Part shown: positions 6,029 through 19,910 of the stretch, in pieces
Numbering within the stretch: the first letter of the stretch is position 1
Layout of the letters: every line of letters starts with the position of its first letter
Source: Maribacter vaceletii
Lineage (GTDB): Bacteria; Bacteroidota; Bacteroidia; Flavobacteriales; Flavobacteriaceae
NCBI RefSeq assembly: GCF_003634105.1
Contig: NZ_RBIQ01000009.1
Location: 124,001-188,000 of the forward strand
Direction of reading: 5' to 3'
DNA: 64,000 nt
Notes under the pieces: model-generated
Seen by the model: only the letters and a program-made list of their open reading frames with translations
Told to the model about the DNA's origin: nothing
The model's database searches: none
Position numbers and translations under genes: made by a program

Positions 6029-6349
6029 TTATTGCGCAATCTCCATAAACTCTACTGGAGATCCGTTATGTACTATAAATGCAACCTTAACTCCTTCGCC
6101 TGGAGAAAAAGTTTCAACTAACATTTTTTTACCCTTAAGTGCTTTTTCCATATTATCAACTAAATAAGCAACATGTGGTAGAGTTTTTATCATTTCTGGC
6201 ATTGGACTATCGTCATCAAACTTTACCCATTCTATTTTATATTCATCTATATCAAACTCTGTATAATGTATTTTTCCCGGTTCATAAAAACCATCCCATT
6301 CTTTGTCTTCTGTTGTTGGTATTCCAATGTGACTAAATTCGTAATCCAT
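6029..6349 (-). CDS. Small VOC-fold (glyoxalase-like) protein
   Basis: This 106-residue protein looks like a single half of the vicinal-oxygen-chelate fold. It opens with YEFSHIGIPT, the usual first-strand His motif. In the middle comes LPHVAYLVDNMEKALKGKK, the second-module start. It ends with VAFIVHNGSPVEFMEIAQ, whose Glu is a typical VOC metal ligand. Family members include lyases, dioxygenases and isomerases; the reaction here is unknown. It lies 11 bases after the GH2 gene and is the last gene of the operon, so a role in processing the released sugar is plausible. It has no signal peptide and should be cytoplasmic. Confidence 0.7.
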   Translation of the reverse strand: MDYEFSHIGIPTTEDKEWDGFYEPGKIHYTEFDIDEYKIEWVKFDDDSPMPEMIKTLPHVAYLVDNMEKALKGKKMLVETFSPGEGVKVAFIVHNGSPVEFMEIAQ

Positions 6350-6360
6350 AATTTTATATT

Positions 6361-9300
6361 TTATTTATTTGATGCCTTAAGAACAATTTCAAAATTATAT
6401 TTCCCAGATTTTAAAATAAACTGTGGCAATGTTTCAGACAACGTTCCACCAACACTCATTTGCACTAAATCTAGATTTAAAGTATAATAACCCTGCTTTT
6501 TTAAATCATAAGGATGATTTGCTTCTGTAATATTTTTAGCAGAATATGGCCAAATTGAAAAACTAAAATCTGGCGCTCCTTCAATAGTAAGGCCATTTTT
6601 ATTAGATTCTGTTAATTTTAGCCACCTAACATCTGACCTATTTCCATTTTCTTGAGGGTATATATAATTATAGAACAATGCATCTGTTTTAAAAAAAAAC
6701 TCATCTACCTCTGCACCACGCTTTCTATCTATATAATTTTCCCAAGGTCCCTTCCCATAAAATGTAGTATTTTTAAAAGTATCCGGAACTCCCATTGTTA
6801 AACCAAACCTTACAAGACCTGGTAAAGACTCCTTAGCATCCATATTCATAGTAACAATTACTTTCCCATCACTCAAAAATTTATAAATGATATCTAGCTT
6901 CACATCATTTTTATACTGCTTACTAACAAGAATTTTAGCTTCATTAACGTTTTCCGAAACACTAGTTACAGAAGTAGTCTCTAGCTTATCTGCTAAAAAT
7001 TCCCAAAACTCTTTAGATTTTTTAAACATTCTACTACTTGCCCCTTTTAAATCATTATCTATTGGTGGACGATAAAAATTAGGTTTTAATGGTGAAGCTA
7101 TCTGTTCTTTTTTGTTTACAATTAAAGAAACTAGCTCCCCTGTACTCTTAGATACTTTTCCAGAAAAGTGCTTTGATGAAACTATAATTTCTTCTAAACT
7201 CTCTTTTACATCTACAATTGTTTTAGATGAAGAAGTATTAGTATTAGAAAATTTTCTAGGTTTTAAAAGGATTTGGTCTTTAGCCACTTCAAAACCTTTT
7301 TCTGCCCAAAAACGATTCCCTTTTTCATGTACACTAATTTTAACCCAATATTCTGACTCTTGTTTATACTTAACTTTTTTAAAAGGGATAACAAGAGTGT
7401 TAGAACCGGCTGCTTTTACATTTATATCTTTTAATATACCAGATTGTAATTGCTTACCGTTTTCAGAAAGTGTCCATCTAACTTCATAAGCACTTAAATC
7501 TGTGAAATTTAAATGGTTTATAGCGGTTACTTTTCCATTTTTTATATCCGAATCTTTGAAACTAAATGGTTGAAAAATATACTTACATTCCCAAGCATGC
7601 GGATTTGGCTTTCTGTCTGGAGTAAAAACTCCATTTATACAAAAATTCTTATCGTTGGGTATATCTCCAAAATCTCCTCCGTAGGCATAGTATTTTTCTC
7701 CTTTATCATTAGTAGCCTCTAAGCCCTGATCTATCATATCCCAAATAAAACCTCCTATAAGATTAGGTTTCGCATTTATCAGATCCCAATACTCTCCTAA
7801 CCCACCTATAGAATTACCCATTGCATGTGCATATTCGCACATAATAATAGGCCTATCAATATGCTTACTACTAGCCATTGCTTCTAGTTGGTAAATTTCT
7901 GGATACATTCTACTTAACACATCTACATAGTCAGGATCATCTGGATTAGCATGTGCCGGTCCTCTAAATAATTTTTGTCCTTCATCACCTTCTTTATAGT
8001 TAGGGTCGGTTGGGTCTCCCTGCGCGCCTTCATAATGAATAAAACGTGAAGGGTCATAATCTCTAATCCAACCTGCCGCCGCTGCAAATGCAGGGCCTGA
8101 ACCAGCTTCATTACCCATAGACCATGAAATAATACTAGGGTTATTTTTATCCCTATCTATCATACGCATAATTCTACTTAAAATAGGAATAGCCAAACTT
8201 GGTTGCTGTGGCGCATAACTACCCAAATGATGCGTTTCTATATTTGCCTCATCCATAACATAAAGACCATATGTATTACACAACTCGTAGAAATATGGGT
8301 CGTTTGGATAATGAGAAGTACGCACTGCATTAAAATTGAATTTTTTCAACAATTTAACATCATCTTCTAAATCCTTTCTTGTTAGTGCTTTTCCTGTTAC
8401 AGGATGGTGATCATGGCGATTAACTCCTTTTATTTTTACAGACTTCCCATTAACTAATAATTCACTTTTATCACTAAAGGAAATATGCCTAAATCCTACT
8501 TTTTGACTTCTTGATTCTACGATTTTACCATTTGGATCTGTAACATCCAAAACTAGAGTGTACAAATAAGGTTTCTCTGATGACCATTTTTTAGGACTTT
8601 TAATATTTGCTTCTAAAAATGCAAATTTTGTTATATCGCGTTGAGGCCATCTTTCAAAATGTACATCTTCCACAGAACAAGACATAGTCTCTAATAAAAC
8701 TTTTTCATTATTGGCATCGTAAAGTTCTGCATTTATCTTCCAATCTTTAAGCTCCTCTTCATCTCCTTTCATCCATAAATGTGGACGTATTTCTAATTTA
8801 GCATCTTTTAAATCGGCATCGAACTTTGTTCTAACAAAAAAATCGTTTAAAGCAATTTTTGGCTGTGCTAGTAACATAACCTCCCTATGTATGCCACTTA
8901 AACGCCACATATCTTGATCCTCTAGGTAACTACCATCACTCCATCTAAATACTTGAACAGCTACTCTATTAGTACCTTCCGTTAAAAAATCAGTAACATC
9001 AAATTCTGCTGCTAATCTACTTCCTTGGCTATACCCTACTTTTTTACCATTTACCCATACATAAAAAGCAGAAGATACACCTCCAAAATGCAAAATAATA
9101 GATTGCTCTTTCCAATTCTCAGGAATTGTAAAATCTCTATAATAACTACCTACTGGATTATCCCTATAATTTTCTATATATGGAAACTGTGGAGGATGCG
9201 GCCCCATGTAATTAAAATTACGCTTACCACCATTAGCAATATCTGGAGTAAAAGGATAAATTATATTAGAGTAAATTGGTTGCCCATATCCTTCTAATTC

Positions 9301-18680: not shown

Positions 18681-18851
18681 AGTTAATATTGTATTAGTGT
18701 ACTTTACACATGAAAAAAAATGCATAAAGCATCTTTAAATCTACAAAAATTACCAAAAAAACAACAAAAAATACATAAACATGATAAAATAGTGCTAGTG
18801 TAAAAAAGCCAATAAATACTCATTTACCAAGGGGAAAGAGTATTTTTTTAA

Positions 18852-19910
18852 CTATTCTACTAAAAACTTATAAATACAAACAGAAGAATATGTATCATTT
18901 GGATTTAAAATAGTGGAAGGAAATTTTGGTTGGTTAGGAGAATCTGGATAATGTTGTGTTTCTAAGCAAACAGCCCCTCTTTTTAAATAAGGTTTACCAC
19001 ATTTACCAACTACAGATCCATCTAAAAAGTTTGAGGTATATAATTGCATTCCAGGTTCATTAGTATAAACTTCCATTACTCTTCCTGAAACAGGTTCTAC
19101 AACTCTTGCAGCAAATGAAATTCCTTCAGTATTCTTTTTAGAAGAATCTACTATAAAATTATGATCATAACCATTCCCTAAAGTTAATTGCTCATGAGAA
19201 TTATTTATTTCTTTTCCAATTTCTTTAGGGGTAGTAAAATCAAAAGGAGTTCCTTTTACATTTACTAATTCTCCCGTAGGAACTTGATTTTCATTTAATG
19301 CAGTAAATGTATTTGAATTAAGGGTTAACACATGATCTAGCACATCTCCTACTCCCTCCCCTTTTAGATTAAAAAAGGAATGGTTTGTAAGATTTATTGG
19401 CGTTGCTTTATCTGTTGTTGCTTTATATTCAATTTTTAATTCATTAGCATCTGTTAACTTATAAGTTACAGTAACATCTAAATTACCAGGATACCCCTCC
19501 TCCATATCTGGAGAAGTTCTTGAAAATTCTACTGCATTTGAACCTATACTATTAGTTTTCCATATAACGTCATTAAAACCAGTTACTCCTCCGTGTAAAT
19601 GATTCTCTCCATTATTTTTAACTAAAGTATATTCATTACCATTTAAACTAAATTTTCCATTTGCAATTCTATTTCCATATCGTCCTATTACAGCCCCAAA
19701 ATAACCTCCTTTTGGCTCAGTATACTCATGTAAAGAAGAAAAACCTAAAACTACATCCAAAAAATTACCATCTTTATCTGGAACATATAAAGCTACAAGG
19801 CGTTGTCCATAGTTTGTAAAAACAGCTTCCAAACCATTTTTATTTTTAAGCCTATATAAACCAATTTCTTCTCCATTTATAACATCCTTAAAACTATCCT
19901 CTTTAATCAT
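18852..19910 (-). CDS. galM: Aldose 1-epimerase (mutarotase)
   Basis: This 352-residue protein of the galactose mutarotase family interconverts alpha and beta anomers of aldoses. Family motifs: FTNYGQRLVALYVPDKDGNFLDVVLGF, GRYGNRIANGKF, NGENHLHGG, INLTNHSFFNL, and the C-terminal CLETQHYPDSPNQPKFPS with its catalytic Glu. As read, it starts at ATG 19908-19910 without a signal peptide and would be cytoplasmic. However, a 35-codon lipoprotein-leader ORF overlaps its start by two bases (shared 19908-19909), and one extra A in the run at 19914-19920 would fuse the two. Many Bacteroidota mutarotases are lipoproteins, so the true product may be the fusion. It follows the LacI/galM intergenic region. 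Confidence 0.92.
   Translation of the reverse strand: MIKEDSFKDVINGEEIGLYRLKNKNGLEAVFTNYGQRLVALYVPDKDGNFLDVVLGFSSLHEYTEPKGGYFGAVIGRYGNRIANGKFSLNGNEYTLVKNNGENHLHGGVTGFNDVIWKTNSIGSNAVEFSRTSPDMEEGYPGNLDVTVTYKLTDANELKIEYKATTDKATPINLTNHSFFNLKGEGVGDVLDHVLTLNSNTFTALNENQVPTGELVNVKGTPFDFTTPKEIGKEINNSHEQLTLGNGYDHNFIVDSSKKNTEGISFAARVVEPVSGRVMEVYTNEPGMQLYTSNFLDGSVVGKCGKPYLKRGAVCLETQHYPDSPNQPKFPSTILNPNDTYSSVCIYKFLVE

Follow-up and report, generated by a model that had tools for sequence, protein, structure and literature searches.

Carrageenan is a major cell-wall polymer of red algae, and descriptions of its lower breakdown have so far involved a kinase and a phospho-aldolase. The closest described system is the polysaccharide utilization locus (PUL) ZGAL_3145-3159 of Zobellia galactanivorans, in which the product of the cycloisomerase DauB is 2-keto-3-deoxy-D-galactonate (KDGal) (PMC5698469). 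Non-phosphorylative variants in carrageenan degraders without dauC were already foreseen by Ficko-Blean et al. in 2017 (PMC5698469). For Pseudoalteromonas, the anhydrogalactose and galactose branches are said to converge likely at KDGal (PMC6923384). Here we describe a dag/dau operon in a stretch of 64,000 nucleotides (nt) from Maribacter vaceletii, hereafter the window (positions 124001-188000 of contig C3; the source genome has 3.9 Mb in 15 contigs). The operon shares a DauA homologue with the carrageenan PULs of Pseudoalteromonas (PMC6923384, PMC6262041), but P. carrageenovora carries dauC and dauD (PMC6262041), whereas the window has a single gene for an HpcH/HpaI class II aldolase. We consider it probable, from gene content and comparison across genomes, that the operon encodes a kinase-free variant of the known carrageenan catabolism in which HpcH would cleave KDGal itself.

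One aldolase gene in the slot of dauC and dauD

The operon runs on the minus strand from 17621 to 6029 in the order GntP, RhaT-like symporter, DauB, DauA, HpcH/HpaI aldolase, DagB, LacZ-type glycoside hydrolase family 2 (GH2) enzyme and a small open reading frame (ORF), with an AraC regulator and GalM upstream and susC/susD downstream (5563-543). All named genes are intact ORFs, and their Pfam and NCBIfam names agree with those given next to susCD by the initial annotation of the window. As the intergenic gaps calculated from the coordinates are only 88, 36, 3, 26, 9, 68 and 11 nt, the string from GntP to the small ORF is likely a single transcription unit.

The likeness to Zobellia-type carrageenan metabolism that had been proposed for this operon holds in gene order as well as in the nearest characterised enzymes. 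ZGAL_3152-3159 and four Zobellia loci from our sample (L132, L137, L138 and L140, reading AraC, GntP, RhaT, DauB, DauA, DauC, DauD, DagB) match the window save that dauD-dauC gives way to one HpcH gene. The GntP permease is 70-71% identical to the gene in the same place in the four loci, and the RhaT-like gene likewise holds its place there; ZGAL_3157 is listed as a DMT sugar/H+ symporter (PMC5698469). Besides AraC, the transporter, the symporter and the dauB, dauA, dagB order, the published PUL shares three GH127s and sulfatases with the window locus. It differs in having dauC and dauD instead of HpcH, and the 15-gene cluster as described has no susCD pair, whereas the window locus has susCD and a GH2 (PMC5698469).

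In the three Zobellia genomes searched (G001, G236 and G388), dauC matches the DGOK family. A DGOK search of the source genome returned no match, with the E. coli and Caulobacter controls responding, and contig C3 had no match to the DGOK, PfkB or PF01081 families; PfkB matches fell only on contigs C1 and C2, and those to PF01081 (2-keto-3-deoxy-6-phosphogluconate (KDPG)-type aldolase) only on C1. The initial annotation had seen an HpcH aldolase in place of the kinase and phosphorylated aldolase, and the slot between DauA and DagB is indeed where it stands. The same operon, with an HpcH 96% identical, is found in the uncultured Maribacter isolate 4-441 (L069), whose genome, of unstated completeness, also gave no match in the DGOK search. 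As a replacement of kinase and phospho-aldolase, the HpcH gene appears well supported by these comparisons.

The variant proposed in 2017 shares with the window a kinase-less breakdown of KDGal, but it keeps dauD, core to all 30 species considered there, and the section proposing it mentions no HpcH (PMC5698469). New relative to the known route, judging by gene content, is the replacement of dauD as well as dauC by HpcH. No paper joining an HpcH aldolase to carrageenan or a PUL was found in a partial coverage of the literature, and a printed description may exist.

The upper pathway

By its enzymes and their arrangement, the cluster is identified as a carrageenan dag/dau operon of the known Zobellia type. 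Adjacent dauA and dauB, GH127 and DagB with catalytic residues, sulfatases, susCD and a cgrA-like AraC gene are all present; of the traits listed as core for clades 1-2 (PMC5698469), dauC (DGOK) and dauD (2-keto-3-deoxy-6-phosphogalactonate aldolase) were not found at the locus. DagB matches the Zobellia 3,6-anhydro-D-galactosidase 5OPQ at 1166 bits, shares 71-72% identity with its counterparts in the four Zobellia loci and keeps 11 of 11 published catalytic or contact residues (PMC5698469). No Pfam family reached its cut-off (DUF6259, 21.8 bits against 28.7). An assignment to GH129 proper was rejected, the GH129 enzyme NagBb (5WZN) scoring 31 bits; the authors of DagB themselves placed it outside GH129 (PMC5698469).

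DauB is 55% identical to the characterised DauB 5OLC, which it matches at 475 bits (next PDB match 295), and keeps 7 of 7 catalytic, metal and pocket residues (D87, K166, D194, E220, E246, H296 and W298). DauA matches 6PNU at 472 bits (next PDB match 286), an entry of the paper on the 3,6-anhydro-D-galactose dehydrogenase DauA of Pseudoalteromonas (PMC6923384), and is 75-78% identical to DauA of the four Zobellia loci.

The kinship of the two genes disagrees. The window DauB is 87% identical to that of Flavobacterium algicola and 55-57% to those of Zobellia, and the window DauA is 75% identical to that of F. algicola and 75-78% to those of Zobellia; a past exchange of dauB on either side is possible.

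These matches bear on another reading, in which the true substrate of DauA, DauB and HpcH is some other sugar or acid, L-rhamnonate or L-fuconate for example. RhmA belongs to the HpcH family and the permease is RhaT-like, but the L-rhamnonate dehydratase model gave 185 bits (cut-off 393) and RhmA 133 (cut-off 441), the DauB and DauA structures are the best PDB matches by a wide margin, and DagB in the operon and GH127 and sulfatases at the locus are common to carrageenan loci. We give this reading hardly any chance and rejected it, as its models fall far under their cut-offs and DauA and DauB are the nearest structures. Clustering of the mandelate racemase/muconate lactonizing (MR/MLE) enzyme and the aldehyde dehydrogenase (ALDH) with rhamnonate or fuconate enzymes, the outcome that the initial annotation had set against itself, was not found in structures or trees.

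The HpcH aldolase and the proposed pathway

The aldolase lies well over the PF03328 cut-off (121 against 25 bits) and under the cut-offs of all four NCBIfam equivalogs that it matched, which include HpaI (170 against 369 bits), GarL (153 against 407) and RhmA. With AbHpaI (PMC8560999), RhmA/YfaU 2VWS and GarL it shares the family, the metal ligands, an E-H pair and an arginine; it differs from HpaI, GarL and RhmA in its scores below the curated cut-offs, its own loop, a histidine for glutamine and its setting in a carrageenan operon. Its residues E45, H46, R71, E151 and D176 match the key residues named for AbHpaI, Glu46, His47, Arg72, Glu151 and Asp177 (PMC8560999), a correspondence drawn from spacing and from alignments to other family members, with AbHpaI itself outside them. 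AbHpaI cleaves (4R)-KDGal into pyruvate and D-glyceraldehyde with a kcat/Km about 36-fold that for the gluconate epimer, 2-keto-3-deoxygluconate (PMC8560999). The window HpcH probably acts on KDGal.

In the proposed pathway, sulfatases and susCD would deliver desulfated oligosaccharides, from which DagB and the GH127s (DagA) would free 3,6-anhydro-D-galactose, and the GH2 galactose. DauA would then oxidize 3,6-anhydro-D-galactose to 3,6-anhydro-D-galactonate, which DauB would convert to KDGal. Here the metal-dependent HpcH/HpaI enzyme would split KDGal into pyruvate and D-glyceraldehyde, replacing phosphorylation by DauC and cleavage by DauD. Left of susD lie the genes of a second MR/MLE enzyme (MR/MLE2) and a major facilitator superfamily (MFS) transporter, which probably contribute to the same pool of KDGal.

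D-Glyceraldehyde can be used by oxidation followed by glycerate kinase, or by another entry. The former is the likely route here. A GarK-type kinase is encoded elsewhere (C1:1171914), and its operon, judged by eye, seems unrelated. The initial annotation had called the route complete; DagB, DauA, DauB and HpcH are present as claimed, but we recognised no gene in the operon that would take D-glyceraldehyde further.

HpcH in other DauB loci

Of 397 genomes sampled from the family, 34, including the source, match the window DauB at 1e-90. We collected 34 neighbourhoods from the 33 others and added the best 80 of 155 relatives, giving 114 loci; some genomes occur in both sets, L044 and L091 being the same locus. 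Genes were labelled by their best BLAST match to a small query set, with ORFs below 80 amino acids and nested ORFs dropped. HpcH lies directly behind DauA in 13 of the 114 loci (12 distinct), always on the strand of DauA and spaced by 0-4 nt in 11, with an overlap of 8 nt in L096 and a distance of 147 nt in L098. None of the 13 has a DGOK, PfkB or EDA-type gene within the 13-21 kb fetched.

In the 34-locus set, DauA is adjacent in 33 (DGOK + EDA in 10, PfkB + EDA in 9, HpcH in 9, none in 5) and absent in one. In the best-80 set, 66 loci have DauA near DauB, with DGOK in 41, PfkB + EDA in 16, an EDA-type aldolase alone in 3, HpcH in 4 and none in view in 2; the remaining 14 have no adjacent DauA. 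At the genome level, DGOK was found in none of the 10 genomes with DauA-HpcH (G000, G036, G067, G072, G119, G169, G213, G237, G246 and G361; G067 is 87% and G361 78% complete) and in 15 of the 24 other DauB genomes (Fisher P = 0.0007, kinship ignored).

Before building trees we removed near-identical copies, rows that were short and DauA rows with less than 45% identity, which reduced DauA from 100 to 89 rows, DauB from 114 to 103 and HpcH from 22 to 21; two Bradyrhizobium DauB rows were also excluded. For DauA and DauB we used quick trees whose only branch support is SH-aLRT, and the placement of L098 is unsure. The 89 DauA rows, the window included, carry DGOK (44), PfkB (24), HpcH (13) or none of these (8) and fall on two sides of a branch with full support. 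The side with Zobellia and the window has 47 rows (DGOK 41, PfkB 2, HpcH 2, none 2), and the other has 42 (PfkB 22, HpcH 11, none 6, DGOK 3). The window and L069 belong to a starred group of 15 rows, of which the remaining 13 are all DGOK; because the window DauA thus nests among DGOK-bearing rows, HpcH looks like a derived replacement in the window operon. In the DauB tree, too, the window and L069 group with DGOK-bearing loci, the window with those of Flavobacterium algicola/fluviatile. On the second DauA side, HpcH loci are closely intermixed with PfkB(+EDA) loci, as would be expected of interchangeable modules. The starred branches require the HpcH label to change at least seven times in the DauA tree and at least six times in the DauB tree. 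Related clusters seem to have exchanged kinase and phospho-aldolase for HpcH on more than one occasion. In the HpcH tree, the window and L069 are paired (100/99) and are surrounded by orthologues whose loci belong to the other side of the DauA tree, with 9 of 20 inner branches open; the window gene may have come from a cluster of that side.

Evidence weighing against kinase-free cleavage

Several observations, on the enzyme, the loci and the genomes, speak against this interpretation. AbHpaI comes from 4-hydroxyphenylacetate breakdown, and its cleavage of KDGal is slow, at a kcat of 3 per min, with condensation favoured (PMC8560999). In the window enzyme the loop G-M-C-R-Y-V-R-A lacks one residue relative to HpaI and RhmA, and His149 stands at the position of their glutamine. 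A G-x-C-R-x-V-R loop and an H-x-E-G metal motif are invariant in 19 aligned sequences of the HpcH group; with its own invariant loop and His149 for Gln, the specificity of HpcH may differ from that of HpaI.

Among the 13 HpcH loci, a GH127 of at least 60% identity occurs in 5 and DagB in 1, and 11 of the 13 distinct HpcH-type DauA rows belong to the second side of the tree, where the substrate is putative. A test on independent pairs (seven pairs) had the kinase changing in the opposite direction to HpcH in 4-7 and in the same direction in none, with a median P of 0.0625, which is suggestive only. A search for HpcH in the 397 genomes at 1e-60 found 18 places in 16 genomes, 11 adjoining DauA and 7 not. 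Of the seven, two are orthologues of 72-73% identity (L149, beside an MFS gene, and L150) and the other five represent a second type at 55-58%. In G084, G145 and G323, second-type HpcH genes (55-56%) share a contig with a DauAB + PfkB + EDA locus, at a distance of about 10-30 kb that puts them just beyond the neighbourhoods collected, and the clean exclusion of kinases is for this reason limited to HpcH behind DauA, about 10 kb to either side. The second type was seen in L152 (9082-11154), L153 (2630-4642), L154, L155 and L156, with an MR/MLE2-like neighbour (32-33%) in L152 and L153.

The source genome itself has two PfkB + KDPG-type aldolase pairs on C1, one of them within a galactonate-type operon (MFS, MR/MLE, PfkB and EDA at C1:580241-584368), so the description of the route as completely kinase-free applies to the locus and less surely to the cell, where these pairs could act in trans. 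The PfkB and KDPG-type aldolase at C1:582720-584368 would then process KDGal, leaving HpcH a side job, for instance on another 2-keto acid. We think this unlikely. The MFS and MR/MLE genes of the C1 operon share 66% and 72% identity with their counterparts next to the window operon; PfkB and EDA-type genes share the locus with adjacent DauAB in 25 of the 114 neighbourhoods, so the kinase type can fit the pathway; and the three genomes just named have second-type HpcH and a PfkB kinase locus on one contig. A KDPG-type aldolase is not absent from the HpcH genomes, as each of the 34 genomes gave one or more matches to PF01081, and GarK glycerate kinase is not enriched in them (6 of 10 against 17 of 24 others). 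Against the route in trans stand the 13 DauA-HpcH loci with no kinase in the stretch fetched. In addition, 6 of the 10 HpcH genomes (two of the six being 78% and 87% complete) hold a single PF01081 aldolase, which resembles in score the source copy in a cluster that looks by eye like one for uronates. The genome-wide PfkB search covered the source genome.

A probable second feed into KDGal

Kinase-free cleavage by HpcH could serve more than one branch. Sulfatases and GH127 had been expected left of the window, and C3:112175-124402 holds, on the strand of the operon, the MFS transporter, MR/MLE2, two sulfatases and three GH127 genes, the latter within C3:112175-118465; a further GH127 gene and more sulfatase genes lie beyond a plus-strand cluster at C3:100994-111624. 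A sulfatase search of the source genome gave 55 places, including cases in which a single frame was matched in two pieces. No carrageenase was identified; the GH16 search of the genome gave four places, whose identity as carrageenases was unchecked, and GH82 was not searched.

MR/MLE2 is galactonate-dehydratase-like (268 bits against a cut-off of 311), and its MFS neighbour (PF07690) resembles D-galactonate transporters (TIGR00893, 377 bits against 395). In Maribacter huludaoensis (L101), the MFS and MR/MLE2 genes sit together with a DGOK-like gene. Because the paralogues on C1 and the genes in L101 sit with a kinase, and on C1 also with a KDPG-type aldolase, the arrangement suggests that MR/MLE2 also yields KDGal, HpcH serving both branches in the carrageenan locus.

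HpcH might instead cleave mainly the galactonate-derived KDGal of the MR/MLE2 branch, with the anhydrogalactose branch secondary. The L149 orthologue (72%) stands beside the same type of MFS gene (86%) with no DauAB, second-type HpcH genes adjoin MR/MLE2-like genes in L152 and L153, and MR/MLE2 itself scores as galactonate-dehydratase-like. The window HpcH, however, belongs to the string of genes with DauAB, and HpcH is kept directly behind DauA in 13 loci, which leaves this alternative only a slim chance.

Annotated features and neighbouring regions

Table 1. Genes of the dag/dau operon and its surroundings (window coordinates)
Feature	Coordinates	Strand	Evidence
GntP-family permease	16314..17621	-	PF02447 259 bits; positional counterpart of ZGAL_3158
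RhaT-like (DMT) sugar/H+ symporter	15191..16225	-	PF06379 95 bits; positional counterpart of ZGAL_3157
DauB-like 3,6-anhydro-D-galactonate cycloisomerase (MR/MLE)	14006..15154	-	best PDB match 5OLC
DauA-like 3,6-anhydro-D-galactose dehydrogenase (ALDH)	12566..14002	-	best PDB match 6PNU
HpcH/HpaI class II pyruvate aldolase, in dauC-dauD slot, 254 residues	11775..12539	-	PF03328 121 bits
DagB, GH129-like alpha-1,3-(3,6-anhydro)-D-galactosidase, 695 residues	9678..11765	-	5OPQ match
LacZ-type GH2 beta-galactosidase	6361..9609	-	PF02836 287 bits; NCBIfam Bga2A 971.7 bits, cut-off 999
Small conserved ORF, weakly VOC/glyoxalase-like, 106 residues	6029..6349	-	weak glyoxalase match
AraC-family regulator, CgrA-like	17796..18725	-	PF12833; 76-80% to AraC of the four Zobellia loci
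GalM-type aldose 1-epimerase	18852..19910	-	PF01263 308 bits; PRK11055 above cut-off, galM_Leloir equivalog below
SusD-like lipoprotein	543..2300	-	adjoins SusC; 73-74% to SusD of L101, L103, L105, L119
SusC-like TonB-dependent transporter	2312..5563	-	70-73% to SusC of L069, L101, L103, L105, L119
MFS (galactonate-transporter-like) gene start	1..402	-	whole gene C3:123116-124402, cut by left end of window

The small ORF at the end of the operon had been labelled VOC. Its best profile match is the glyoxalase 3HDP (E 0.00095), which agrees with the label, but a Pfam scan at 0.001 gave no match; PF00903 appears weakly in 6 of 9 homologues. Homologues occur in 17 of the 114 DauB neighbourhoods, in kinase-type and HpcH-type loci alike.

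The plus-strand cluster at C3:100994-111624 (L004:14994-20000 and L005:1-5624), between GH127 genes, encodes FAH-type hydratases (the second named by eye), an IlvD/Edd dehydratase, GntP, a tautomerase-like protein, 2Fe-2S and molybdopterin oxidase subunits, a lactonase-like protein, and an acylating acetaldehyde dehydrogenase and a 4-hydroxy-2-oxovalerate aldolase, both over their NCBIfam cut-offs. It looks like a lower meta-cleavage pathway with a sugar-acid dehydratase inside a sulfated-galactan island. A distant second set of ALDH (33%), MR/MLE (36%), GalM (37%) and RhaT-like (28%) genes at C1:558439-563261 is possibly an agar 3,6-anhydro-L-galactose route, the substrate being a guess. Elsewhere in the window, a large ORF (28403-31570) seems by eye to carry leucine-rich repeats and, after them, a Roc-like GTPase P-loop.

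Implications for carrageenan use

Tentatively, and with the balance just short of even, the HpcH subfamily may be a dedicated D-KDGal aldolase cassette that has repeatedly replaced kinase and phospho-aldolase in marine Bacteroidota, so that both halves of carrageenan would reach pyruvate and D-glyceraldehyde without a sugar-acid phosphate. If kinase-free cleavage is true, the swap to one enzyme would alter the energy yield, and the exit would be glyceraldehyde, not glyceraldehyde-3-phosphate. It would also account for clusters without dauC and dauD and provide a natural stereoselective KDGal aldolase, and the question raised in 2017 of a non-phosphorylative route in dauC-less degraders would become testable with one protein.

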